Below are positions 38,334-49,286 of a DNA stretch of 64,000 nucleotides, piece by piece. Positions within the stretch are counted from its first letter, which is position 1; each line of letters starts with the position of its first letter. Made by a program: the position numbers and the translations under genes. The DNA is from Hymenobacter sp. 15J16-1T3B. Its GTDB lineage: Bacteria > Bacteroidota > Bacteroidia > Cytophagales > Hymenobacteraceae. The stretch covers positions 248,001 through 312,000 of the forward strand of contig NZ_JAJFAV010000003.1 of NCBI RefSeq assembly GCF_020711235.1, given 5' to 3'. Below the pieces are notes generated by a model that made no database searches, was not told the DNA's origin, and worked only from the letters and a program-made list of their open reading frames with translations.

Positions 38334-38341
38334 TACCTTTG
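38334..38341 (+). promoter_or_regulatory. -7 promoter box of surE
   Basis: TACCTTTG, a perfect TAnnTTTG box, 36 nt before the GTG start at 38378. It overlaps a TTG that would otherwise extend the frame, arguing for the GTG. Confidence 0.7.
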
Positions 38342-38377
38342 CCGCCGTATTTACTGCCGACCAACCTGATTTTGCCC

Positions 38378-39253
38378 GTGAGTGCCGACGCCCCCAAGCA
38401 GCCGCTGATTCTGATTTCCAACGACGACAGCATTGCCGCCCCCGGCATTGCGGTGCTCGTGCGCGTGATGCGCCGCCTCGGCGAGGTGGTGATTGTGGCC
38501 CCCGCGGCCCCGCAGTCGGGCATGGGCCACGCCATTACCCTGAGCGAACCGCTGCGCCTCGACCGCAGCCAGCTGTTCGAGGGCATCGAGGCCTACACCT
38601 GCTCGGGCACTCCGGCCGACTGCGTCAAGATTGCCAAGCACCTCGTGCTGAAAGGCCGCCGGCCCGACTTGGTCGTGTCGGGCGTCAACCACGGCTCCAA
38701 CGCCTCGGTCAACGTGATTTACTCCGGTACGATGTCGGCGGCGCTGGAAGCGGCCATTGAGGGGCTGCCCGCCATCGGTTTCTCGCTCTGCGACTTTTCG
38801 CACCAGGCCGATTTCTCGCACGCCGAGCCGTGGATTGAACACGTGGCCCGCGAGGCGCTTAGCAAGGGCGTGCCCGCCGGCACGGCCCTGAACGTGAACA
38901 TTCCCAAGAAATCCGACGCGCCCATCGTGGGGGCCAAGGTGTGCCGGCAGGCCCGCGCCAAGTGGCAGGAAGAATTCGACACCCGCCAAGACCCGTACCG
39001 CCGGCCCTACTACTGGGTGCTCGGCAACTTCCTCAACGAAGAGCCCCAGGCCGAAGACACCGACGAATGGGCCCTGGCCCACAACTACGTGAGCATTGTG
39101 CCCTGCCAGTTCGACTTCACCCACCACGCCGGCCTGCGCGCGCTGCAGGGCGACTGGACGCTGCAGCTGCCCGGCCGCCCCACGCCCGCCGAGCCGGCCG
39201 AGCCCACGCCCGTCAGCCCCGGCGACTACGGCCCGGCCAACCCGCAAGGCTAG
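38378..39253 (+). CDS. surE: 5'-nucleotidase SurE
   Basis: 291 aa from GTG 38378. Metal-dependent nucleoside 5'-monophosphate phosphatase. The conserved sites are all present: SNDD (Asp16, Asp17), APQSGMG (Ser47), and SGVNHGSNAS (Asn104), plus YSGTMSAALEAAIEGLPAIGFS. The core fold ends near residue 240; the last ~50 residues (PGRPTPAEPAEPTPVSPGDYG) are a Pro-rich extension. It acts in the cytoplasm in stationary-phase survival and nucleotide turnover in other bacteria. Transcribed alone, with a very strong terminator shared with the convergent small secreted protein. Confidence 0.93.
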   Translation: MSADAPKQPLILISNDDSIAAPGIAVLVRVMRRLGEVVIVAPAAPQSGMGHAITLSEPLRLDRSQLFEGIEAYTCSGTPADCVKIAKHLVLKGRRPDLVVSGVNHGSNASVNVIYSGTMSAALEAAIEGLPAIGFSLCDFSHQADFSHAEPWIEHVAREALSKGVPAGTALNVNIPKKSDAPIVGAKVCRQARAKWQEEFDTRQDPYRRPYYWVLGNFLNEEPQAEDTDEWALAHNYVSIVPCQFDFTHHAGLRALQGDWTLQLPGRPTPAEPAEPTPVSPGDYGPANPQG

Positions 39254-39344: not shown

Positions 39345-39617
39345 TTACTGCTTCACCGTCGACTTGGTCGCCGTGCTCGAGGTCTGGGTCTTGGTCACGC
39401 CGCTGGGGGTGGTATGGGTCATCGTCTTGTGGTGCTGCGACGAGGACTTGTACTGGCCCGAGGTTTTGGTCTGGCCGCTGGGCGTGGTCATGGTCTTGGT
39501 CCGCGTCGACGTGGTGCCCGACTGGGTGGTCGTGGTGGTTTTGGTCGGCGTAGTTTGGGCCGAGGCTGCGGTGCTGAGCAGGGCGCCGGCGGCAAGCAGC
39601 AACAGGTACTTTTTCAT
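39345..39617 (-). CDS. Small Thr-rich secreted protein
   Basis: 90 aa from ATG 39617. Signal peptide MKKYLLLLAAGALLSTAASAQ, then ~70 residues of low complexity rich in Thr, Ser, Lys and Gln, with repeated TTPSGxTKT segments. No fold, cysteine or catalytic residue. The signal peptide is near-identical to that of the neighbouring protein at 39691-39930, which suggests a tandem duplication. Possible roles (surface-exposed polymer-binding, sugar carrier, glycosylation target) are guesses. Real rather than noise because of the signal peptide and matching composition. Confidence 0.65.
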   Translation of the reverse strand: MKKYLLLLAAGALLSTAASAQTTPTKTTTTTQSGTTSTRTKTMTTPSGQTKTSGQYKSSSQHHKTMTHTTPSGVTKTQTSSTATKSTVKQ

Positions 39618-39690
39618 GGTCGGAGTGGGGGGAATAGTTGAGATTAGGAGTTCAACGGGCAAAGCTGCCCGCGGGATGCATCCGCGGGGC

Positions 39691-39930
39691 CTAGCCTTCG
39701 GTGGTGGTCGTGGTGGTCTTCTGCATGTCACCCTTCTTCATCATCTTCTTGGTGTCCTTGGCGTCTTTCTTGGGCACGCCGGCGTCCTTGGCGTCCTTTT
39801 TCATCACCTTGCCGGCCTTTTTGCCGGTTTGGGTGGTTGAGGTCGTGGTGGTGGTGCTCGGCGTGGTTTGGGCCGAAGCCGCGGCGGCCGCGCAGCAGAT
39901 GGCCGCTAGGAGCAGCAGGTACTTTTTCAT
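39691..39930 (-). CDS. Small Lys/Thr-rich secreted protein
   Basis: 79 aa from ATG 39930. Signal peptide MKKYLLLLAAICCAAAAASAQ, then a TTPSTTTTTSTTQT run and a strongly basic Lys/Asp region made of repeated KKDAKD elements (KKAGKVMKKDAKDAG, VPKKDAKDTKKMMKKGD), ending in poly-Thr. It shares its signal peptide type with the protein at 39345-39617. The repeated KKDAKD could bind polyanions such as DNA, teichoic-like or acidic exopolysaccharide; this is inference. Oriented the same way as its partner, 73 bp apart. Confidence 0.65.
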   Translation of the reverse strand: MKKYLLLLAAICCAAAAASAQTTPSTTTTTSTTQTGKKAGKVMKKDAKDAGVPKKDAKDTKKMMKKGDMQKTTTTTTEG

Positions 39931-40062
39931 GGAAGAAACGTGGGTTGAGGTGACGGTTGTGGCCGAAACGTAGCGCGGCGAAGTGAAGCTGGCGTGAGGG
40001 CGCAAACCCGGCCGCCGGCGTATCTTGCCCGCCCCGATTGTTTCGCTTCAACCATTCCCGTT

Positions 40063-41055
40063 ATGCTATTCCCCGCATTGCCGCGGCGCGGCCGCTGGCT
40101 GCTCCGCCCGGCCCGGGCCCAGCAGCTCTACCGCACCCAGGAGCCGTTTGCTCACACCTATTCCATCGTGGCCCGCGACCCGAAAACGGGCGACCTGGCC
40201 GTGGCCGTGCAAAGCCACTGGTTTTCGGTGGGCACGGCCGTGTCGTGGGCCGAGGCCGGGGTGGGAGCCATTGCCACCCAGTCGTTTACCAACAAGTCCT
40301 TCGGGCCGCGCGGGCTGGCCCTGCTGAAAAGCGGCAAAACCGCCCAGCAAACCCTCGACGAGCTGCTGCGCACCGACGAAGGCCGCGACGTGCGCCAGGT
40401 GGCCATAGTCGACAGCAAGGGCAACGTGGCCACCCACACGGGGAAAAAATGCGTCGACATGGCCGGGCACCAGCAGGGCGCCGGGTTTTCGGTGCAGGCC
40501 AACATGATGCTTTCCGACAAGGTGTGGCCCGCCATGGCCCGGGCCTTCGAGCAAAACGCCCAGCTGCCGCTGCCCGAGCGCCTGCTGGCCGCCCTCGACG
40601 CGGCCCAGGCCCAGGGCGGCGACATCCGCGGGCGGCAGTCGGCCGCGCTGCTGGTGGTGCGCGCCCAGGCCTCCGACGCGCCCTGGGACGACCGGCTGGT
40701 GGATCTGCGCGTGGACGACGCCCCGGAGCCGCTCAAGGAGCTGCGCCGCCTGCTGCAGCTGCAGCGCGCCTACGACCACATGAACGCCGGCGACCTGGCC
40801 GTGGAGAAAAACGACATGCCCGCCGCCGTGCGCGAGTACCAGGCCGCCGAGCAAGCCTTCCCCCACAACTTGGAAATGCGCTACTGGCACGCCATCACGC
40901 TGGCCAACAAGGGGCAGGTGGCCGAAGCCAAAAAGCTACTGCAGCCCATTTTTCGGCAGGAGCCCAACTGGCGCACCCTCACCGAGCGCCTGCCCAAAGT
41001 GGGCCTGCTGACCGTGCCGGAAGCCGAGCTAAAACAAATTCTAGCCCTGAAATAA
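40063..41055 (+). CDS. DUF1028 family protein with C-terminal TPR-like segment
   Basis: 330 aa from ATG 40063. The DUF1028 domain (~28-230) is diagnostic: TYSIVARDPKTGDLAVAVQSHWFSVGTAVSWAEAGVGAIATQ, RQVAIVDSKGNVATHTG, QGAGFSVQANMM, and ALLVVRAQ. It resembles Ntn-hydrolase-like proteins of unknown activity. Residues ~245-330 are helical and TPR-like (EKNDMPAAVREYQAAEQAFPHNLEMRYWHA). Homologues usually have a hydrophobic signal peptide ending ARAQ; here the segment reads RRGRWLLRPARAQQ with no hydrophobic core. A deletion or sequence error may have removed it. TATCTTGC at 40021 is an imperfect -7 box. Confidence 0.8.
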   Translation: MLFPALPRRGRWLLRPARAQQLYRTQEPFAHTYSIVARDPKTGDLAVAVQSHWFSVGTAVSWAEAGVGAIATQSFTNKSFGPRGLALLKSGKTAQQTLDELLRTDEGRDVRQVAIVDSKGNVATHTGKKCVDMAGHQQGAGFSVQANMMLSDKVWPAMARAFEQNAQLPLPERLLAALDAAQAQGGDIRGRQSAALLVVRAQASDAPWDDRLVDLRVDDAPEPLKELRRLLQLQRAYDHMNAGDLAVEKNDMPAAVREYQAAEQAFPHNLEMRYWHAITLANKGQVAEAKKLLQPIFRQEPNWRTLTERLPKVGLLTVPEAELKQILALK

Positions 41056-41131
41056 GCCGCCACGCGGCCCGTTCAAGCCACGTTCGGCCCCGCGGGCGCG
41101 TCTGTGGTCTACCCGCTTTCTATTCTTGCTT

Positions 41132-41686
41132 ATGCCTTTTCTGATTCGTTTGCTCTGCCTGCTGCCCTTGCTTGGCGCCGCCACCTTGCCCGCGCCCGAC
41201 GCTGCCAAGCCCAAGGCCGTGACCGTGTATCTGGTGCGCCACGCCGAAAAAGGCCCGCTGACCGACCCGCAGAAGCCCACCGAGCAGCCCCTGAGCGCCG
41301 CCGGGGAGCAACGCGCCCAAGCCCTGCGCGACGCGCTGCGCAAAGAGCCCATCGTGGCCGTGTACTGCACCGACACCAAGCGCACCCGCGACACGGCCGC
41401 GCCCTTGGCCTCGGCCCGCAAGCTCAACCCCGAGTCGTACGTGGCCGACGCGCCCGGCCTGGCCGCGCTAGCCACCCGCATCCGCCAGGTGACGCCGGCC
41501 GGCAAAGCCGCCTTGGTGGTGGGCCACTCCAACACGGTGCTCGAAACCATCGAGGCCCTGGGCGCGCCGCGGCCCGTCAAGGCCATCGGCGACGACGAGT
41601 TCAGCTACCTGTTCGAGGTGAAGCTGCCGGCCAGCGGCGGCCCGGCCACGGCGACGGTGCGCCGCTACGGGGCGCAGCTGAAGTAG
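41132..41686 (+). CDS. Histidine phosphatase family protein (SixA/PGM-like), secreted
   Basis: 184 aa from ATG 41132. Signal peptide MPFLIRLLCLLPLLGAATLPAPDA. Catalytic core: YLVRHAEKG with the phospho-accepting His in the RHAEK motif, the Arg in DTKRTRDTA and the second His in VVGHSNTV. Small, single-domain members such as SixA remove phosphate from protein His or small molecules; a signal peptide points to a periplasmic role here. It directly precedes the three DUF3298-like paralogues by 4 bp, so it may be co-transcribed with them. Substrate unknown. Confidence 0.8.
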   Translation: MPFLIRLLCLLPLLGAATLPAPDAAKPKAVTVYLVRHAEKGPLTDPQKPTEQPLSAAGEQRAQALRDALRKEPIVAVYCTDTKRTRDTAAPLASARKLNPESYVADAPGLAALATRIRQVTPAGKAALVVGHSNTVLETIEALGAPRPVKAIGDDEFSYLFEVKLPASGGPATATVRRYGAQLK

Positions 41687-41690
41687 CCCG

Positions 41691-42848
41691 ATGAACCTGC
41701 ACCTGCCGTTAGTCGGCCTGCTGCTGTTAAGCGCGGCGGGTGGCCCGGGCCGGGAGGCCCCGCGTGCGGCAGTCCGGCGCGCATCCGGCCTGAGCCATTG
41801 GCTAACCTCCAACCGGCGCTGGCGCGGCACCATCGGCCAGCTGCCCGTGACGCTGCAGCTGGATTCGGGCCACCTGGGCTGCCGAGGCGAGTACGCCTAC
41901 GACCGGCTGGGGCGCGCCCTGGACCTGACGCCGAAAGCCTCCGAGCCGCGCCCGCCCCGGGTGTTTGAGGAACGCGCCCCGGATGCATTCCGCGTGACGG
42001 GCTGGCTGCAGCTCGACGCGCCGGCTGGCCCCGCCATTACCGGTACCTGGCGCAGCTCCGACGGCCGCCGTTCGGTTCCGCTTGCCCTGCGCGAGAACTA
42101 CCACGACGCGGCCCACTACGAGCTCGAAACCTGGCAGCTGCGTTGCCCGGTTTCCCGCCCCGACGCCACCCGCCCGGCCGGCAGCTGGACGCACTACGAG
42201 CAAAGCTACCTGCGCGTGCGCCTGCCCGGCCACCCCGCCGCCGAGCAGCGGCTACGGCGGGTGCTGGGGCCGCCCGTAGCCGCGTCTGCCGTGAAAAACC
42301 GCCTGCAGACCGCGCTGCTGGGCAAGCCGGCCGGCTACCTGCGGGAAGAGGCCCTGTACGTCGTATGCAACACCAACTACCTGCTCTCGGTGGTGAGTTG
42401 GCACAAAGAGCTAAACCCCACCGCGAATACCATTGACGAGTGGACGGACGTGCGCAACTTCGATCTGCGCACCGGCCGGGAGCTGCAGCTACCCGACCTG
42501 CTGCGCCCCGGCTACCAACCCCGGCTGCGGCAACTGCTGCTCGGGAAGCTGGCCGCGGTGTGGAAAACCGGGGGCTACGGCCGCGTCGGGGCCGATGGCA
42601 AGCTGCCTCGCAGCGGCTTCAGCGTGGTGCCCACCGGCCTGCAATTCAGCTACGACCAGCGCGACGACGCCAGACTGGTCTGGGCCGGCTCCGTGCGCAC
42701 CGGCCGTCAAATCGGCGTAGCGCTGAGCTACCGGGAGTTGCTGCCGCTGATCCGGCCCGACGGCCCGCTGGCGGCTATGCTGCGGGAGCGGGGGCTGGCT
42801 GCGGATGCGGCGTCGGCCCAGGAACTAAGCCGCTCAGCGGGTAAATAA
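41691..42848 (+). CDS. DUF3298/RsiV-like exported protein, paralogue 1
   Basis: 385 aa. Hydrophobic N-terminus MNLHLPLVGLLLLSAAGG, but no lipobox Cys, unlike paralogues 2 and 3. Middle domain: WRGTIGQLPVTLQLDS, ITGTWRSSDGRRSVPLALRENYHDAAHYELE. C-terminal DUF3298-like domain: NFDLRTGRELQLPDLLRPGYQPRLRQLLLGKL, RSGFSVVPTGLQFSY and LSYRELLPLIRPDGPLA. This domain in RsiV binds lysozyme. It is the most divergent of three tandem copies that start 4, 10 and 24 bp after the preceding stop. Function not known; surface-exposed ligand binding is a guess. Confidence 0.75.
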   Translation: MNLHLPLVGLLLLSAAGGPGREAPRAAVRRASGLSHWLTSNRRWRGTIGQLPVTLQLDSGHLGCRGEYAYDRLGRALDLTPKASEPRPPRVFEERAPDAFRVTGWLQLDAPAGPAITGTWRSSDGRRSVPLALRENYHDAAHYELETWQLRCPVSRPDATRPAGSWTHYEQSYLRVRLPGHPAAEQRLRRVLGPPVAASAVKNRLQTALLGKPAGYLREEALYVVCNTNYLLSVVSWHKELNPTANTIDEWTDVRNFDLRTGRELQLPDLLRPGYQPRLRQLLLGKLAAVWKTGGYGRVGADGKLPRSGFSVVPTGLQFSYDQRDDARLVWAGSVRTGRQIGVALSYRELLPLIRPDGPLAAMLRERGLAADAASAQELSRSAGK

Positions 42849-42858
42849 CCCCCCGAGT

Positions 42859-44058
42859 ATGCTTATTCACCGCTTGCGCTATACCGGCCTATGGTCGCTG
42901 CTGCTCGGTCTGGGCGCCTGCCAGCAGTCCGATTCCCACTCCGCCGCAGCCTCCGAAGCGCCCGCCGCCAAGATGGCAACTGCTCCTGCGGCTGCTCCCG
43001 GCGCGCCGGCTGCTACCCAAGACGCTGCCGCCCCGGCCGGGCCCTTCACCGGCACCCACCGCTACGTGGGCACGGTGGGCACCGCGCCGGTGGTGCTGAC
43101 ACTGACCATCACCCCGCCCGGCCCCGAGGCGCCCCAAGGTCGCCTCGACGGCGTCTATTACTACGAGCGGCAGGGCCAGCCCCTAATCCTCAGCGTCGGC
43201 AAGAACTACCGCCCGGGCCAGCCCTTGGTTCTGGAGGAAGGCGCGCCCAAGCCCGACGCTCCGGACGAAACCGTGCCCACCGGCCGCTGGCAGGCCACGC
43301 AGCCCCTCGGGCCGGAGCTCAGCGGCACCTGGCTCAGCCCCGACGGCCGGCGCCGGAAGCCCTTCCACTTGCGCGAGGACTACACCGGCGCCGTGCGCTA
43401 CGAGCTGCTGCGCGAAGAAGCCCACGGCGCGACCTGCCCGCCCGGGCCCGAGGAGGAAGGCGGTGGGCCGCGCCGGCCCGAAGTGTCGCGCACCGTCCTG
43501 CACCTGCTCGGCCCCGACACCCTGCAGCCGGCCTTGCGCGCCCTGCAGTGCCCGCTGCCCGAGCAGCGCCGCAGCCAGCTGGCCGTGGAGCTGGACCAGG
43601 CCGACTGCGAAGGCACCTTCGGCTTCTACGGTGACGTGCAAGTGGCCCTGAACGGCTACGGCCTGTTGTCGGTGCAGCACAGCGAGGGCGAATACGCCGG
43701 CGGCGCCTACCCCAACAGCGCCAACGAGCTGGCCACCTACGACCTGCGCACCGGCCGCCTGCTGAAGCGGACCGCCTGGCTGCGCGCAGGGCGGGAGCCG
43801 GCTTTGAGCCGCCTGTTGCTGCGCCGGCTGCGGATGCACCCCTACGCCAGCAGCCTGGGCCTAAACGAGCCGGGCGGGCCCGCCTACCTGCCGGAGCTGG
43901 GCTTCGACAGCGAAGGCGCCTACTGCCTGCTCGGCGACTTCGGCGCCCCGCACGCCGTGCAGGGCGTGCCGGTGGTCATTCCCTACCGCGAGCTGCGGCC
44001 CCTGGTGCAGCCGGGTTCGGCGCTGGCGCGCATGCTGCAGCAGCGGGGCTTGTGGTAA
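42859..44058 (+). CDS. DUF3298/RsiV-like lipoprotein, paralogue 2
   Basis: 399 aa. Lipoprotein with lipobox LGAC at about residue 21 (LLLGLGACQQS). An Ala-rich linker to ~50 is followed by RYVGTVGTAPVVLTLTI and YYYERQGQPLILSVG, then QPLGPELSGTWLSPDGRRRKPFHLREDYTGAVRYELL. The C-terminal DUF3298-like domain has GGAYPNSANELATYDLRTGRLLKRTAWLRAG and VVIPYRELRPLVQPGSALARMLQQRGL. A 56-bp stretch (43301-43356) is identical but for one base to 44486-44541 in paralogue 3. The three genes probably form one operon. Confidence 0.78.
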   Translation: MLIHRLRYTGLWSLLLGLGACQQSDSHSAAASEAPAAKMATAPAAAPGAPAATQDAAAPAGPFTGTHRYVGTVGTAPVVLTLTITPPGPEAPQGRLDGVYYYERQGQPLILSVGKNYRPGQPLVLEEGAPKPDAPDETVPTGRWQATQPLGPELSGTWLSPDGRRRKPFHLREDYTGAVRYELLREEAHGATCPPGPEEEGGGPRRPEVSRTVLHLLGPDTLQPALRALQCPLPEQRRSQLAVELDQADCEGTFGFYGDVQVALNGYGLLSVQHSEGEYAGGAYPNSANELATYDLRTGRLLKRTAWLRAGREPALSRLLLRRLRMHPYASSLGLNEPGGPAYLPELGFDSEGAYCLLGDFGAPHAVQGVPVVIPYRELRPLVQPGSALARMLQQRGLW

Positions 44059-44082
44059 ACTTGCCACCGGATACTCCACGCT

Positions 44083-45294
44083 ATGCTGAATACTTCCTGC
44101 CAACGCTTGCGCGGCGTCGGACTCGCCCTAAGCCTGCTGACTGCCTGCGAATCGCGGCGCCTGCCCGCTGACGCCGCTCCGCCCGTGGCCGGTACCCTGG
44201 CTGCCGGAGTCGATTCGACCGCGGCGGCAGCGAGCGAGGGGCCGTCGGCGCCCGCCCACCCGACGGCGGCGGGCCCCGCCCTCAGCTCGTACCGGCGCTA
44301 CGTGGGCACGGTGGGCGCCGCGCCAGTGGTGCTGGAGTTGACCGTGGCCGACTCGGTGCGCGGCACCTATTACTACCAGCGCCGCGGCGGGCCGCTGACG
44401 CTGGCGGCGCGGCCGGCGGCGGGCGCGCCCCTCGTGTTCCGCGAAACCGACGGCGGCCGCCTGAGTGGCCGCTGGCAGGCCCAGCAGCCCCTCGGGCCGG
44501 AGCTCAGTGGCACCTGGCTCAGCCCCGACGGCCGGCGCCGGCTGCCCTTCCGTCTGCGCGAAGACTATGCCGGCGCCGTGCGCTACGTCCTCGAAGCCTA
44601 CGAGAGTGAAATGCCCGCTACGGCCCAGTCGCGGGAGTGCGGCAACCCCGCCGACACGCTGCGCTTCGAGCTTGGCGTGGTGCACGTGCTGCTGCCTTAC
44701 CCGTCCGCGGCCGTCGGGCGGGTGGCGCGGGCCCTGCTGCCGGCGCCACCCGCCCGGCTACAGCGCTACCTCGACCAGCAGCTGCGCGAAGAAGGGGAGT
44801 GCAGCCGGGTAGTCCGCTCGGCCTGGCTGACTTACAACGCCGACGACCTGCTATCGGTGGAGCAGTTCGAACTCGTGGACGGGTTTGGCGTCCACCCCAA
44901 CAGCGGCTCCAGCTACCGCACCTTCGACCTGCGCGCGGGCCGGGAGCTGCAGCTGACAGACCTGCTGCGCCCCGGCTTCGAGCTGCCCCTGCGCCGGCTG
45001 CTGAGCGCCCGCCTGCGCACCGACCCGGGTTATGCCGACTTCTACCACGACGACATCGAGGGGGACACAGCGCAACTCTGGTGGCCCGCGGGGCCCGACG
45101 GCCAGCCGCTGGCGCCGCTGCCCAAGCAGGGCTTCCACCTGACGCCGGCGGGCCTGGGCTTCGGGTACAATCCCTACGAAATTGCGCCGTACGTGGTCGG
45201 GCCCACAGTTATTGAAATCAGCTACCCCGACCTCAAGCCGCTGGTGCGGCCCGGCTCGCCTTTGGCCCGGCTGCTGCGGGCGCGCGGCCTGTAG
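44083..45294 (+). CDS. DUF3298/RsiV-like lipoprotein, paralogue 3
   Basis: 403 aa. Lipobox LTAC at about residue 21 (LALSLLTACESRR). Same layout as paralogue 2: Pro/Ala-rich linker, RYVGTVGAAPVVLELTV, TYYYQRRGGPLTL, QPLGPELSGTWLSPDGRRRLPFRLREDYAGAVRYVLEAYE, then the DUF3298-like part: GFGVHPNSGSSYRTFDLRAGRELQLTDLLRPGFELPL and ISYPDLKPLVRPGSPLARLLRARGL. Extra residues, among them ESEMPATAQSRECGNPAD, set it apart. Closest to paralogue 2 in sequence and DNA. No sigma factor gene is adjacent, so an anti-sigma role as for RsiV has no support here. Confidence 0.78.
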   Translation: MLNTSCQRLRGVGLALSLLTACESRRLPADAAPPVAGTLAAGVDSTAAAASEGPSAPAHPTAAGPALSSYRRYVGTVGAAPVVLELTVADSVRGTYYYQRRGGPLTLAARPAAGAPLVFRETDGGRLSGRWQAQQPLGPELSGTWLSPDGRRRLPFRLREDYAGAVRYVLEAYESEMPATAQSRECGNPADTLRFELGVVHVLLPYPSAAVGRVARALLPAPPARLQRYLDQQLREEGECSRVVRSAWLTYNADDLLSVEQFELVDGFGVHPNSGSSYRTFDLRAGRELQLTDLLRPGFELPLRRLLSARLRTDPGYADFYHDDIEGDTAQLWWPAGPDGQPLAPLPKQGFHLTPAGLGFGYNPYEIAPYVVGPTVIEISYPDLKPLVRPGSPLARLLRARGL

Positions 45295-45398
45295 CAGCCG
45301 CGGACCTGAGCAATATCAGCCGGCGGCCCTGACGAGCGTCATGCCGGCGGCCGTGGAGGAGGAGCACTTTTACGCCGTATTCCAAACCGCTCCTTCGC

Positions 45399-46310
45399 AT
45401 GGACACCCTCGTCGTACTGACCAACCTCTCGCCGGCGGCCGAACGCGCCCGCCGCTACGCCGCCCAGCTGGCCGGCCCCCTCGGCGCCCGCGTGGTGCTG
45501 CTGCACGTGTACCAGCCGCCCGTCGTGCCCGCCGAATCGGGCCTGGCCGTGGGCGACGTGATGTACTACGACCGGCAGCAGGTCACCGAGACCCTGCAGG
45601 GCATTGCTGCCGACATGCTGGTGCCCACCACGGCCGAGGTCGTCGACGGGGCGTTTGGCGACGCGCTGGAAGCCGCCGTGGCCCGCTACCAGCCTCTGCT
45701 GCTGGTGCTGGGCCTGAGCAGCGCCGAGCGGTATTTCGACGCGCTGCTGACCAACCGCGCCCTGCCGCTGCTGCGCCACAGCCCGTACCCGGCGCTGCTG
45801 GTGCCCGAAACCGCGGCCCTGCTGCCCCCGCGCCGCGTGGTGGTGGGCATCGACGGGGAGCCGTTTGTGGTGACGGCCGCCGCCGGTGGGATTTTGCAAG
45901 AGCTGCTGGGCACCTGGCAAGCGGCCCCGACCCTGGTCTACACCTCTACGCCCGAAAGCAGCCGGAGCCGTAACGAAGTGCTGCGCAACGTGCAGCGCAG
46001 TGGCTTGCTGCCGCTGGAGGCCGAAATTGATTTCAGCCAGCCCCTGGCGGAAACGCCCGAAGAAGGCGTGCTGAGCACCGCCTCCGCCCGCGAAGCCAAC
46101 CTGCTGGTGCTGCTGGCCCGGCGCCGCAGCTTCCTGGGCCAGTTGTTTCACCGCAGCGTGACGGCCCGCGTGCTGCGCCGCGCCGCGCTGCCCGTGCTGC
46201 TGCTGCCCGTGGCCGAGCCGGTGGCCGCAACGGCCACGCCGGCCACGACCCTGACGGACGCCGCGGCTAAGGCCCCGGGTGCCGGCTTGGCCATAGACGC
46301 CGCGAGTTAG
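45399..46310 (+). CDS. Tandem universal stress protein
   Basis: 303 aa with two UspA domains, about 1-140 and 148-285. Domain 1: DTLVVLTNLSPAAERARRYAAQLAGPLGARVVLLHVYQPP and LVLGLSSAERYF. Domain 2: RRVVVGIDGEPFVVTAAAGG, LLVLLARRRSFLGQLFHRSVTARVLRRAALPVLLLP, which ends in the common S-x-T-x-x-V-L-x-x-x-x-x-P-V-L-x-x-P form. Many Bacteroidota Usp proteins are such fusions and may bind ATP or other nucleotides in stress. The stop codon falls in the loop of the following terminator. Confidence 0.85.
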   Translation: MDTLVVLTNLSPAAERARRYAAQLAGPLGARVVLLHVYQPPVVPAESGLAVGDVMYYDRQQVTETLQGIAADMLVPTTAEVVDGAFGDALEAAVARYQPLLLVLGLSSAERYFDALLTNRALPLLRHSPYPALLVPETAALLPPRRVVVGIDGEPFVVTAAAGGILQELLGTWQAAPTLVYTSTPESSRSRNEVLRNVQRSGLLPLEAEIDFSQPLAETPEEGVLSTASAREANLLVLLARRRSFLGQLFHRSVTARVLRRAALPVLLLPVAEPVAATATPATTLTDAAAKAPGAGLAIDAAS

Positions 46311-46328
46311 CTCGCGGCGGCTTTTTTT
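46299..46328 (+). terminator. Intrinsic terminator overlapping the stop codon of the Usp gene
   Basis: GCCGCGAG-TTAG-CTCGCGGC (46299-46306, 46311-46318) followed by GGC and a T-run of seven bases. The loop TTAG contains the TAG stop codon (46308-46310). Confidence 0.9.
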
Positions 46329-46390
46329 CTTGCGGGTGGGCCCGGGCGCCGGCGTTGCCCGCCCGTCTGCGGCGGCGTACTTTTAAGCCG

Positions 46391-47782
46391 ATGAATTATT
46401 CCCGTATTGCTACCGTGCTGTTAGTGGCCCTGCTGGGGTGCGAGAAAAAGCAGCCCGCCGCGCCCGTCAACCCCGGCGCCGGCATTGGCTACCACCTGAA
46501 ACTGACTTCCCCCAACGCGCGGGCGCCGTACGTCGATTTTCCCGTGGGCATGGGCGCGGCCGCCGACGGCAACCTGTGGCTGGGCTTTCAGGCCTACGGC
46601 ACGCCCGGCGCCAGCGCCCGTTTCGACGGCCTCGGCCTGGCGTGCTACTCGCCCGCGGGCCAGCCGCAATGGGCCCGCTACCTCGGTCTCGGCCCGCTCT
46701 CGTTGGTTGCGTTCAACACGCGCCCGGCCGGCGGGGGCTGGCTGGCGGCAAGCCTGGAAAACGGCGACGTCCTGGCCGGGGTAGTGCCCGACAACCCAAC
46801 GGCCGGCGCGCTGCAGCGGCTGTCCTTCGGCCCCACGGCGTGGCCGCTGGTGCGGCGGGCCCCGGTGCCGACGGCCGACGGCGGCTGTTTGGTCGCGTTT
46901 GAGCCGAGCGGACTGCAAGCGCAGCTGTTGCTGCTCAAGCTCAATGCCCAGGGGGCGGCCCAGTGGGCAAACCGGTACACGCTGCCCATTGGCCTGGAGC
47001 TGCCCGTCGTGGCCGCTACCGCCGACGGCGGCGCCTGGGTACTGGGCTGCACCTCCATGGGCGGGCCGTTTACGCTGCTGAAAATAGCGGCCACCGGCGC
47101 CCTGGAGCGGGCCCAGTTGCTGACCAGCTCGCCTCCGCCCATGAGCTTTACCATGCGCACGGTGGTGCTGCGCGCCCTGCCCAACGGCGGATGCCTGACG
47201 GGCTGGGGCACGTCGGCCGGCGCCTGCCTGACCACCTATGCCGCCAACGGCGACCAGGTCAGCAGCAAAGTCTATCAGATTCCGGGCCTGAACGTGGCGC
47301 CCTTCCAAACCCAGCACCTGGTGAACGTGGAGCGCACCGCCGCGGGCACTTGGCTGCTGGCCCTGAGCGCCTGGCCCAACGCGCCGGGCGCCACCATGAT
47401 TACGCGCTACCTCTACCAGCTCACGGCCGATGGCCAAAGCAATGACCCCGGCCACGTGCTGCTGGCCGAGCCCTACGCCGGCGGCCTCAACGCCGAGCGG
47501 CTCGAACTGGTGCCCACCGGCCCCGACCGGGTGGTGGCCCTGACCGGCGGACTGCTCGGCACGGTCGATAGCCGCGAGTTCCGCCTGCTGCAAGCCCGTC
47601 CCGACGGCCTAAACGAGTGCGCCACGCCCACCGCCGACAAGCTGCAGGTCGGCGAGGGCCGCGTGAGCGTGCAACCCGTGGCGGCCGGCGCCACGGCCCA
47701 GAGCCCGGCGCCCTACACCGTCAGCAATTTCAGCTGGCAGGCCGTGCCGCTGGTGCTCGACGCGGCCCGGCAGTGCCAATAA
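46391..47782 (+). CDS. Hypothetical lipoprotein, likely beta-propeller
   Basis: 463 aa from ATG 46391. Lipobox ALLGC at about residue 17 (VLLVALLGCEKK). The rest consists of repeated beta-strand units without cysteine clusters: DGNLWLGFQAYG, GGWLAASLENGDVLAGV, ADGGCLVAFEPSG, ADGGAWVLGCTSMGG, NGGCLTGWGTSAG, which fit a propeller with 6-7 blades. It ends near LNECATP...VSNFSWQAVPLVLDAARQC. No enzymatic motif recognised. TACTTTTA just upstream (46378-46385) is a near match to a -7 box. Anchored to the inner face of the outer or outer face of the inner membrane. Confidence 0.65.
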   Translation: MNYSRIATVLLVALLGCEKKQPAAPVNPGAGIGYHLKLTSPNARAPYVDFPVGMGAAADGNLWLGFQAYGTPGASARFDGLGLACYSPAGQPQWARYLGLGPLSLVAFNTRPAGGGWLAASLENGDVLAGVVPDNPTAGALQRLSFGPTAWPLVRRAPVPTADGGCLVAFEPSGLQAQLLLLKLNAQGAAQWANRYTLPIGLELPVVAATADGGAWVLGCTSMGGPFTLLKIAATGALERAQLLTSSPPPMSFTMRTVVLRALPNGGCLTGWGTSAGACLTTYAANGDQVSSKVYQIPGLNVAPFQTQHLVNVERTAAGTWLLALSAWPNAPGATMITRYLYQLTADGQSNDPGHVLLAEPYAGGLNAERLELVPTGPDRVVALTGGLLGTVDSREFRLLQARPDGLNECATPTADKLQVGEGRVSVQPVAAGATAQSPAPYTVSNFSWQAVPLVLDAARQCQ

Positions 47783-47894
47783 ATGCGGCGGGTTTGTTTT
47801 CTTCGCGACTCGCGGGCCGCGGCGCAACTCCCCGGCTGCGCCCGCGTCAGTGACTGCTCCGCCCGCTTGGGCGTCTACTTTTTGCTCTGCTTTC

Positions 47895-49286
47895 ATGCTC
47901 CACCACCTTCGCTCCGCCGCGGCCGGCCTGCTACTTGCCGCCGCGCTGACCGTGCCCGCCCAGGCCCAAACCGCCGCCAAAACCGACTCGCTCAACCTGC
48001 GCAAAATCTACGACGAGGCCCTGCTGCGCGGGCAGAGCTACGACAACCTGCGCTACCTCTGCCAGCACATCGGCGCCCGCCTGAGCGGCTCGCCCCAGGC
48101 CGAGCAGGCCGTACAGTGGGGCAAGCAAACCATGGAAAAGCTGGGCTTCGACCGCGTGTACTTGCAGGAGGTGATGGTGCCGCACTGGGTGCGCGGGGCC
48201 AAGGAAAAGGCGTCGTTTAAGGCCGGCAAGGGCAAAAACCAGGACGTGGCCGTGTGCGCGCTGGGCGGCTCCGTCGGCACCGGCGGCAAGCTCAAAGCCA
48301 AAGTGGTGGAGGTGCGCAGCTGGGACGAGCTGGCCAAACTGCCCGCCGACCAGGTGAAGGGCCGCTTCGTGTTCTTCAACCGCGCCTTCGACGATAAGCT
48401 CATCGAGCCCGGCGCGGCCTACGGCGGGGCCGTGGACCAGCGCGGCCGCGGCCCGGTGGAGGCCGCCAAGCGCGGGGCCGTGGGCGCTTTGGTGCGTTCC
48501 ATGACCTCGGCCAAGGACGACTTCCCGCACACTGGCACCACCCGCTACGACGACCAGGTGACCAAGGTGCCCGCCGCCGCCCTCAGCACCCTGGCCGCCG
48601 ACCGCCTCAGCGCCGCCCTCAAGCAGGACAAGGACCTGGAATTTGAGCTTGAAATGGCCTGCCAGACCCTGCCCGACGTGAAATCCTACAACGTGGTGGG
48701 CGAAATCAAGGGCTCGAAATTCCCCGACGAAATCATCACCGTCGGCGGCCACCTCGACTCTTGGGACCTGGCCCAGGGCGCCCACGACGACGGCACCGGC
48801 TGCGTGCAGAGCATGGAAGCGCTGCGCCTGCTGCTGGCCAGCGGCCTGCGCCCCGAGCGCACGGTGCGGGCCGTGCTCTTCATGAACGAGGAAAACGGCA
48901 ACCGCGGCGGCACCAAGTACGCCGAACTGGCCAAGGCCGCGGGCGAAAAGCACCTGGCCGCCATCGAGTCCGACGGCGGGGGCTTCACGCCCCGCGGCTT
49001 CGGGGTCGAAGGCTCGCCCGCCGTGGTGGCCAAGTTGCAGCAGTGGCGCCCGCTGCTGGCGCCCTACCACGCCGGCGATATTGCCCCCGGCCACGGCGGC
49101 ACCGACATCGGCCCGCTCAAGGGGCAGGCCCAGGCTCTGATTGGCTACGACTGCGACTCCCAGCGCTACTTCGACATCCACCACACCGCCGCCGACACTT
49201 TCGACAAGGTGCACCGCCGCGAGCTGGAGCTGGGCGGTGCCGGCATGGCCTCGCTGATTTACCTGCTGAGCAAGTACGGGCTGTAG
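47895..49286 (+). CDS. M28 peptidase, carboxypeptidase-Q-like, with PA-type insert
   Basis: 463 aa from ATG 47895. Signal peptide MLHHLRSAAAGLLLAAALTVPAQAQ. The segment ~130-240 is a protease-associated-type domain (GRFVFFNRAF, AKRGAVGALVRSM). M28 sites: GGHLDSWD (His286, Asp288), AHDDGTG (bridging Asp298), MNEENGNRGG (Glu332/333), GHGGTDIGPL and IHHTAADTFDKVH (last zinc His). Close in order to bacterial carboxypeptidase Q/PGCP proteins, which release amino acids or dipeptides. Expected in the periplasm. The shorter M28 protein at 3068-3988 is only distantly related. Confidence 0.88.
   Translation: MLHHLRSAAAGLLLAAALTVPAQAQTAAKTDSLNLRKIYDEALLRGQSYDNLRYLCQHIGARLSGSPQAEQAVQWGKQTMEKLGFDRVYLQEVMVPHWVRGAKEKASFKAGKGKNQDVAVCALGGSVGTGGKLKAKVVEVRSWDELAKLPADQVKGRFVFFNRAFDDKLIEPGAAYGGAVDQRGRGPVEAAKRGAVGALVRSMTSAKDDFPHTGTTRYDDQVTKVPAAALSTLAADRLSAALKQDKDLEFELEMACQTLPDVKSYNVVGEIKGSKFPDEIITVGGHLDSWDLAQGAHDDGTGCVQSMEALRLLLASGLRPERTVRAVLFMNEENGNRGGTKYAELAKAAGEKHLAAIESDGGGFTPRGFGVEGSPAVVAKLQQWRPLLAPYHAGDIAPGHGGTDIGPLKGQAQALIGYDCDSQRYFDIHHTAADTFDKVHRRELELGGAGMASLIYLLSKYGL

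Follow-up and report, generated by a model that had tools for sequence, protein, structure and literature searches.

Three adjacent genes of Hymenobacter sp. 15J16-1T3B encode putative envelope proteins with C-termini like that of the lysozyme receptor RsiV. They raise the question of whether they are recent copies of one another and whether they respond to lysozyme, both of which had been proposed in a preliminary description of the DNA letters. The genes lie in a stretch of 64,000 nucleotides, here called the window, which covers positions 248,001-312,000 of contig NZ_JAJFAV010000003.1 (host genome of 6.3 Mb in 42 contigs); all feature coordinates are window positions and are collected in Table 1. 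The evidence presented here points to old relatives of separate origin, each predicted to join an N-terminal barrel to a C-terminal module of the RsiV type, in a gene slot whose content varies between close species.

All three genes, referred to as copies 1, 2 and 3, are complete co-directional open reading frames with one common layout. Open reading frames, coordinates and pairwise matches agree with the place and layout first described. Copy 1 begins 4 bp behind a histidine phosphatase gene, whose earlier identification was confirmed by a PF00300 match, and gaps of 10 bp and 24 bp separate copy 1 from copy 2 and copy 2 from copy 3. Aligned identity to copy 1 is 36% for copy 2 and 42% for copy 3, and all pairs lie at 36-46%. 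Every pair was connected by phmmer (E ~1e-23 for copies 1 and 2, ~1e-40 for copies 1 and 3, ~1e-48 for copies 2 and 3), indicating that the likeness is not due to chance. The copies have in common the motifs GTW-x-S-x-DGRR, DLR-[TA]-GR and [SP]YxxLxPL, and a conserved LREDY-type linker connects the barrel to the RsiV-type module. The motifs of the preliminary description hold with small changes, but its exact strings are each present in single copies only. Its proposal that the genes form a family of envelope proteins of their own was supported.

Structure models were built for copies 1 and 3 from 33-row family alignments, and copy 2 was assigned by profile comparison. In both models an N-terminal barrel of eight strands precedes a C-terminal module (predicted local distance difference test, pLDDT, 87.8 and predicted template modelling score, pTM, 0.85 for copy 1; 83.6 and 0.78 for copy 3). 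For both, ranks 1-4 of the solved-structure matches were 3s5t, 4e72, 3cyg and 5jen, the last being the RsiV-lysozyme complex. These four matched the module (Z 13.6-17.3 over 183-221 residues; Foldseek E 1.4e-5 to 2.7e-9), and the rows below them reached Z 11.8 at most, matching the barrel instead. The module of copy 3 scored Z 17.3 with 3s5t, 16.8 with 4e72 and 14.2 with RsiV, and that of copy 1 scored 16.1 with 3s5t and 13.6 with RsiV. Each model aligns with nearly the whole RsiV chain, the PdaC-like half included. When the clade of each copy was compared by hhalign with 11 two-domain DUF3298/PdaC relatives from the phylum, values of 99.8%, 99.7% and 100% were obtained for copies 1, 2 and 3. 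The two-domain architecture and fold predicted by the models are well supported, as is a complete RsiV-type module made of a DUF4163/PdaC-like half and a DUF3298-like half, predicted by modelling for copies 1 and 3 and by profile comparison for copy 2.

The Pfam cut-offs are 24.1 bits for DUF3298 (PF11738) and 29.1 bits for PdaC/DUF4163 (PF13739). Copy 3 passed the former with 40.5 bits at residues 293-381, and copies 1 and 2 had no PF11738 match at E<=1. Copy 2 matched PdaC with 14.9 bits (E 0.062), under the cut-off, and copies 1 and 3 gave no PdaC match at E<=1. Scanning NCBIfam yielded a single chance match for copy 2 and none for copies 1 and 3; copy 1 matched neither a Pfam nor an NCBIfam family at E<=1. 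DUF3298 matches (E<=0.1) were found in 9 of 33 family members and, over the whole host genome, at two places, namely in copy 3 and in a gene of contig C37. The DUF3298/RsiV-like C-terminus described earlier is thus upheld by predicted fold in copies 1 and 3 and by profile comparison in all three, but the Pfam check suggested for it singles out copy 3 alone, and for DUF3298 only. Comparison with RsiV had been set beforehand as the test on which the assignment could fail, through lack of any DUF3298 match together with differing folds; a match in copy 3 and RsiV-like predicted folds were found.

The same predicted fold as in the extracellular module of Bacillus subtilis RsiV (PDB 5JEN) extends over residues ~162-398 of copy 3 (197 aligned) and 139-364 of copy 1 (191 aligned). 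Unlike RsiV, the copies have no cytoplasmic sigma-binding part, carry the extra barrel, have no sigma factor in the window and lack most of the lysozyme contacts; a lipobox or a plain hydrophobic N-terminus replaces the membrane helix. The Bacteroides fragilis DUF3298 protein BF2082 (PDB 3S5T) was the top match both by fold and by sequence (phmmer E 4.3e-4 with copy 3, family profile E 8.2e-14), but its solved chain of 253 residues aligns only to the C-terminal module, with no barrel matched. The family profile was built from alignment A2, whose 33 rows leave out 9 distant or odd-length members of the 42 in the tree described below; since members later found with A2 had gone into it, E-values for those are inflated. 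It matched in 120 of 395 Bacteroidota-wide genomes at E<=0.001 (at most 4 candidates scored per genome), mostly over the C-terminal module alone, and both domains were present in some relatives from the phylum (L148-L158). These two-domain PdaC/DUF3298 proteins have the same domain order as the copies and are the relatives used with hhalign above. The five that were scanned all pass the DUF3298 cut-off, unlike copies 1 and 2, and score 25.7-33.4 bits with PdaC, three of them above its cut-off.

The N-terminal barrel offers less guidance, being a common arrangement whose fold gives no function. Residues 66-165 of copy 3 matched the quinohemoprotein amine dehydrogenase (QHNDH) alpha subunit, avidins, designed barrels and PliC at Z ~9-12, and the same kinds of barrel were matched by copy 1 in the same range; VIA-align lists fill up with barrels, and the domain is therefore not claimed as a new fold. 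Likeness to the PliC-type lysozyme inhibitor (PDB 4MIR) lies in the barrel fold (Z 9.2 for copy 3, 9.6 for copy 1), but PliC is tied with avidins, designed barrels and others at 5-8% identity, and the MliC/PliC lysozyme-inhibitor family gave no Pfam match with the three copies (E<=1) or with 13 barrel stretches (E<=0.1). No Pfam model covers the barrel, the same 13 stretches yielding two single weak matches at E<=0.1, and in a search of PDB sequences nothing fell below E 0.4; 4zgf was found there at E 0.0016 with the two-domain profile and at E 0.43 with the barrel query. Judged from sequence, the barrel looks like a separate, mobile domain. Elsewhere it was observed behind nine WG repeats (L143:2478-4022, L144:2476-4017), doubled before DUF3298 (L151:2059-3360) and without a DUF3298 match (L145:2062-2844, L146:1348-2367). 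L147 matches the full family profile and not the barrel-only profile, and was not counted as a barrel, though it is a row of alignment A8.

The origin of the copies was read from a tree of 42 of 47 hits (5 partial hits were left out, one of which, a 238-aa piece from genome G147, was used in a later test). Copies 1, 2 and 3 each belonged to a starred clade of its own that also includes genes from other genomes, and their best identities to a gene of another genome were 47%, 62% and 59%. Hymenobacter edaphi NL and Hymenobacter sp. CRA2 each have a named locus with a copy-3-type gene; a scan of 54 stretches from named genomes with copy 2 found no relative. That the three copies are old relatives that originated separately is well supported by these sequence comparisons. 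Recent local tandem duplication, as first described, is extremely unlikely and was rejected. Adjacency, common strand and layout, and one 121-nt stretch that is 91% alike in copies 2 and 3, would fit it, but each copy is closer to genes of other species than to its neighbours, the nearby genome G020 is without all three, and the remainder of copies 2 and 3, beyond the alike stretch, agrees at ~32-70% in DNA windows.

That stretch could reflect local gene conversion between copies 2 and 3, which is possible on mixed evidence. At 43284-43356, 38 of 41 variable sites agree between the two copies, as high a value being reached in none of 2000 shuffles. The shuffle test was low across genomes too (0/2000 for copy 2 and 2/2000 for copy 3, each against the gene of genome G035), only 4 of 40 sites shared by copies 2 and 3 alone lie inside the stretch, and the stretch is conserved across the family anyway.

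The array occupies a slot between a histidine phosphatase gene (branch 1) and an M28 peptidase gene, as delimited with a rough coding-frame gene picker. A phosphatase match was found in 149 of 150 family genomes and is adjoined by a family member in 13 of the 149 (12 intact, 1 broken): three members stand in the window, two in genome G030, one in each of ten others and a broken one in G055. The remaining 136 have no family member beside the phosphatase at E<=1e-12. Forty of these slots, mostly with higher-scoring phosphatase matches and from genomes without a known slot member, were read directly for gene order, and the rest were judged from coordinates; none of the 40 held a member and 38 had the M28 peptidase. 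G024, G034, G039 and G128, in which the position of the phosphatase was not listed, gave no family match at E<=1e-12. Two-domain members were found at 36 places in 20 of the 150 genomes at E<=1e-70 (at most 12 candidates scored per genome), one of them with an internal stop and 15 in the slot.

Close relatives differ in what the slot holds. G030 has two members, of type 3 and then type 2, the reverse of the window order; G035 has a single copy-3-type gene; and G020 has none. G020 is very close (its M28 peptidase, the nearest row, is 97% identical at the protein level), and its DNA joins window position 41674 to 45329 by 92 bp, with all three genes missing between flanks that are 88-92% identical. 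The one family-profile match in G020 is to the C-terminal module and is found on a different contig. A conserved slot, from phosphatase to M28 peptidase, varies in content between close species, and this is well supported. The leftmost neighbour in Table 1 is a presumed SurE-like 5'-nucleotidase gene, named from its sequence.

Table 1. Copies, domains and neighbouring genes of the slot, in window positions.
Feature	Positions	Strand	Description
Copy 1	41691-42848	+	385 aa; hydrophobic N-terminal stretch without lipobox; predicted barrel ~32-135; predicted RsiV/DUF3298-type module ~136-366
Copy 2	42859-44058	+	399 aa; lipoprotein, Cys21; predicted barrel and RsiV/DUF3298-type module
Copy 3	44083-45294	+	403 aa; lipoprotein, Cys22; predicted barrel and RsiV/DUF3298-type module; DUF3298 signature YEIAPYVVGP kept
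Barrel of copy 1	41793-42107	+	counterpart of copy 3 barrel
Barrel of copy 2	43033-43389	+	counterpart of copy 3 barrel
Barrel of copy 3	44266-44574	+	residues 62-164; eight strands at residues 67-160 in the model
Alike stretch, 121 nt	43282-43402 (copy 2), 44467-44587 (copy 3)	+	91% identical; in barrel region
SurE-like 5'-nucleotidase (presumed)	38339-39253	+	left flank; same cluster in 7 loci
DUF1028 protein with TPR tail	39994-41055	+	left flank; PF06267 257.7 bits; absent here in G020
Histidine phosphatase (branch 1)	41126-41686	+	left slot border; PF00300 49.7 bits, E 4.5e-13
Universal stress protein	45399-46310	+	between array and peptidase; PF00582 78.1 bits; in G030 and G020, not in G035
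M28 peptidase	47850-49286	+	right slot border; PF04389 80.6 bits

Other genes come and go around the slot and family. Window 40050-41123 and 46244-47816 are absent in G020, where the DUF1028 gene and a protein at 46355-47782 are cleanly gone, suggesting that the whole stretch is prone to gene gain and loss. Broken members, with an internal stop or in fragments, were seen at G147:C39 (L052) and G055:C1 (L066, L070), and point to decay besides gain. A second home of the family lies directly behind a histidyl-tRNA-synthetase-like gene, with a small overlap, in six loci found by clustering (L034, L041, L044, L046, L038 and L057); an aromatic amino acid lyase-like gene follows downstream in L034, L041 and L044, Pfam having been run on the two neighbours of L034 only. 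L041 has three tandem family members.

The slot genes also differ from their flanks in rate. Between the window and G030 or G035, nonsynonymous divergence (dN) of copies 2 and 3 was 0.32-0.52, against 0.05-0.17 for the SurE, DUF1028, phosphatase, stress protein and M28 genes in the same genome pairs, a rate roughly double that of the fastest of these five genes and as much as tenfold that of the slowest; copy 1 has no counterpart in G030 and G035, so the rates cover copies 2 and 3. One clade for the copy-3 genes of the window's genus was rejected (approximately unbiased test, p-AU 6.5e-8, a test which assumes that the group is named before the tree is seen, the pairing of the G097 and G035 genes having already been seen), because the G097 gene joins that of G035 and the broken G147 gene joins that of G030. 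In control trees of the flanks the genus forms one group (phosphatase 84/87, not starred; M28 99/96, starred), and both foreign pairings were rejected there (p-AU 2.1e-7 or less). Copy-3-type genes therefore do not follow the phylogeny of the flanks. Transfer between genera would be the simplest reading of these trees, and hidden paralogy may be an alternative source of the discordance.

The location of the proteins was considered from their N-termini, which were judged by eye and pattern. Copies 2 (LGAC) and 3 (LTAC) have the lipobox cysteine and are lipoproteins as first described. Copy 1 indeed has no such cysteine, but its absence is not an event of copy 1 as had been supposed: among the 7 rows of its clade a cysteine within the first 25 residues was found only in L040 and L056, and lack of a lipobox is usual there. 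The surface export signal of Bacteroidota, in the part of PMC5080379 consulted, is a K-(D/E)2, Q-A-(D/E)2 or SDDDD-like motif after the cysteine. None of 24 lipobox-pattern members, a few of which look like false calls, has such a motif (K-DE-DE, QA-DE-DE, ST-DE-DE) right after the cysteine, although the signal of Hymenobacter itself may differ. The periplasmic face is thus the better guess, and the surface exposure proposed earlier was graded weak.

From fold, anchoring and evolutionary pattern we infer, tentatively, that the copies could be periplasm-facing ligand binders with diversified specificity, perhaps inhibitors or decoys for enzymes that attack the cell wall. The proteins would be located in the periplasm or on the side of the outer membrane that faces it, with the saddle loops of their RsiV-type modules as the binding site for ligands. 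Across the three subfamilies these loops vary on a constant scaffold, which suggests that the copies probably bind different ligands. Working alone, the copies would be binders or inhibitors rather than sensors. Cell-wall-attacking proteins, whether secreted or incoming, would be their most likely targets, the choice of ligand being a guess. Saddle loops were more variable than the other loops of the module (mean 2.78 against 2.19 bits, as high in 36 of 5000 random draws of 17 loop positions; 2.68 against 2.19 bits with gaps ignored, as high in 112 of 5000), with limits that were set by the RsiV alignment after the family alignment had been seen and draws that keep no phylogeny.

Several points weigh against such binders. 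Loops vary in most protein families, the limits just given on the loop comparison and those on the AU test apply, and only 3 positions are constant inside each of the three subfamilies while differing among them all (2 in a saddle loop), which is too few. Synonymous divergence (dS) is raised in the copies too, at 0.72-0.97 against 0.31-0.48 for the flanks, so that part of the dN excess would reflect age, replacement or hidden old paralogy rather than selection. In 4 of the 13 slot loci the phosphatase and the family gene overlap by four bases, and this could point instead to a metabolic task in common. Contact positions, placed by sequence and profile alignment together with the family alignment, are poorly kept: at the equivalents of RsiV S169, P259 and Y261, copy 3 has P272, P369 and V371 and copy 2 has P285, P364 and A366 (1/3 kept in each), and copy 1 has 0/3, with no clear equivalents. 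Finally, the fold alone does not give the ligand, since Rv1980c/MPT64 is structurally related to RsiV and yet fails to bind lysozyme, according to the part of PMC5014341 consulted.

That the copies act as lysozyme receptors or inhibitors strictly in the manner of RsiV is very unlikely. The same part of PMC5014341 describes a contact formed by three loops, nearly abolished binding when S169, P259 and Y261 are mutated together, and an isolated extracellular RsiV module that binds and inhibits lysozyme. The predicted fold would suit this role, and copy 3 keeps the equivalents of Y255 and E256 as well as P259. However, Y-[ED]-x-x-P occurs also in 3s5t and 3cyg, for which that part of the paper reports no lysozyme binding, and the equivalents of S169 and Y261 differ in all three copies, which lowers the strict reading. 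The corresponding loop of copy 1 is longer and acidic, with DQRDD in the window and D-[DE]-R-D in six other members of its clade. As the preliminary description had remarked, no sigma factor is near: Sigma70_r2 matched 24 times in the genome and never in the window, the nearest matches on the contig being at contig positions 95,081 and 470,097, and no cytoplasmic domain was seen at the N-termini. RsiV-type signalling was rejected for lack of a sigma factor in the window, and the lysozyme response first suggested was graded weak, the mutation-tested contact residues being mostly not kept.

It is unlikely that the copies bind glycans or muropeptides as structural or accessory envelope lipoproteins, with peptidoglycan or some other polymer held by the PdaC-like half together with the barrel. 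This role gains from the weak PdaC match of copy 2, the PdaC scores of the two-domain relatives, the barrel behind WG repeats and a weak alignment of the copy 1 model with the pneumococcal deacetylase PgdA (Z 7.1-7.4), although common arrangements also reach such a Z, no catalytic domain was seen, and quick turnover and exchange would be unusual in a structural part. It is unlikely, too, that the copies serve a metabolic or repair task of the cluster of SurE, DUF1028, histidine phosphatase, M28 peptidase and LigT genes. The phosphatase neighbourhood in 13 loci, with its overlaps, and the peptidase downstream would fit such a task, but most phosphatase genomes have no adjoining member, copy-3 genes do not have the history of the flanks, and other members lie in unrelated places, one group beside the histidyl-tRNA-synthetase-like gene. 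Among ligand-binding roles, a more specific picture is quite improbable: the slot would be an exchange site for RsiV-fold inhibitors, acquired, reordered and dropped like a stock of immunity proteins, with saddle loops specific for lysozymes of predators, phage endolysins or hydrolases of rivals, and with the barrel as a second domain for binding or positioning. A scan with PADLOC models gave no match at E<=0.1, and no defence-system label is therefore given.

In the part of PMC5014341 consulted, the RsiV/DUF3298 fold comprises one proven lysozyme receptor and several solved members of no known function. No paper about this barrel and DUF3298 family was found in the literature searched, DUF3298 papers included, and no wider claim is made. 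The family carries this fold in lipoproteins, together with a barrel outside Pfam and subfamily-specific loop changes, and would be much more interesting if its copies had different hydrolase targets. Presence and absence between genomes with such similar flanks provides a matched natural pair, a window-type genome and G020, for tests of role.

Two further observations were made. Adjacent genes on the reverse strand at window 39345-39731 and 39691-40005 encode small, secreted-looking, Thr/Lys-rich low-complexity proteins with near-identical signal peptides (MKKYLLLLAA). A distant paralogue of the family was found at G000:C38:73633-74649 (L048) and at L068; its immediate neighbour is a MutS-type gene in L048 and an L-PSP endoribonuclease gene in L068, which has a MutS-type gene close by as well.

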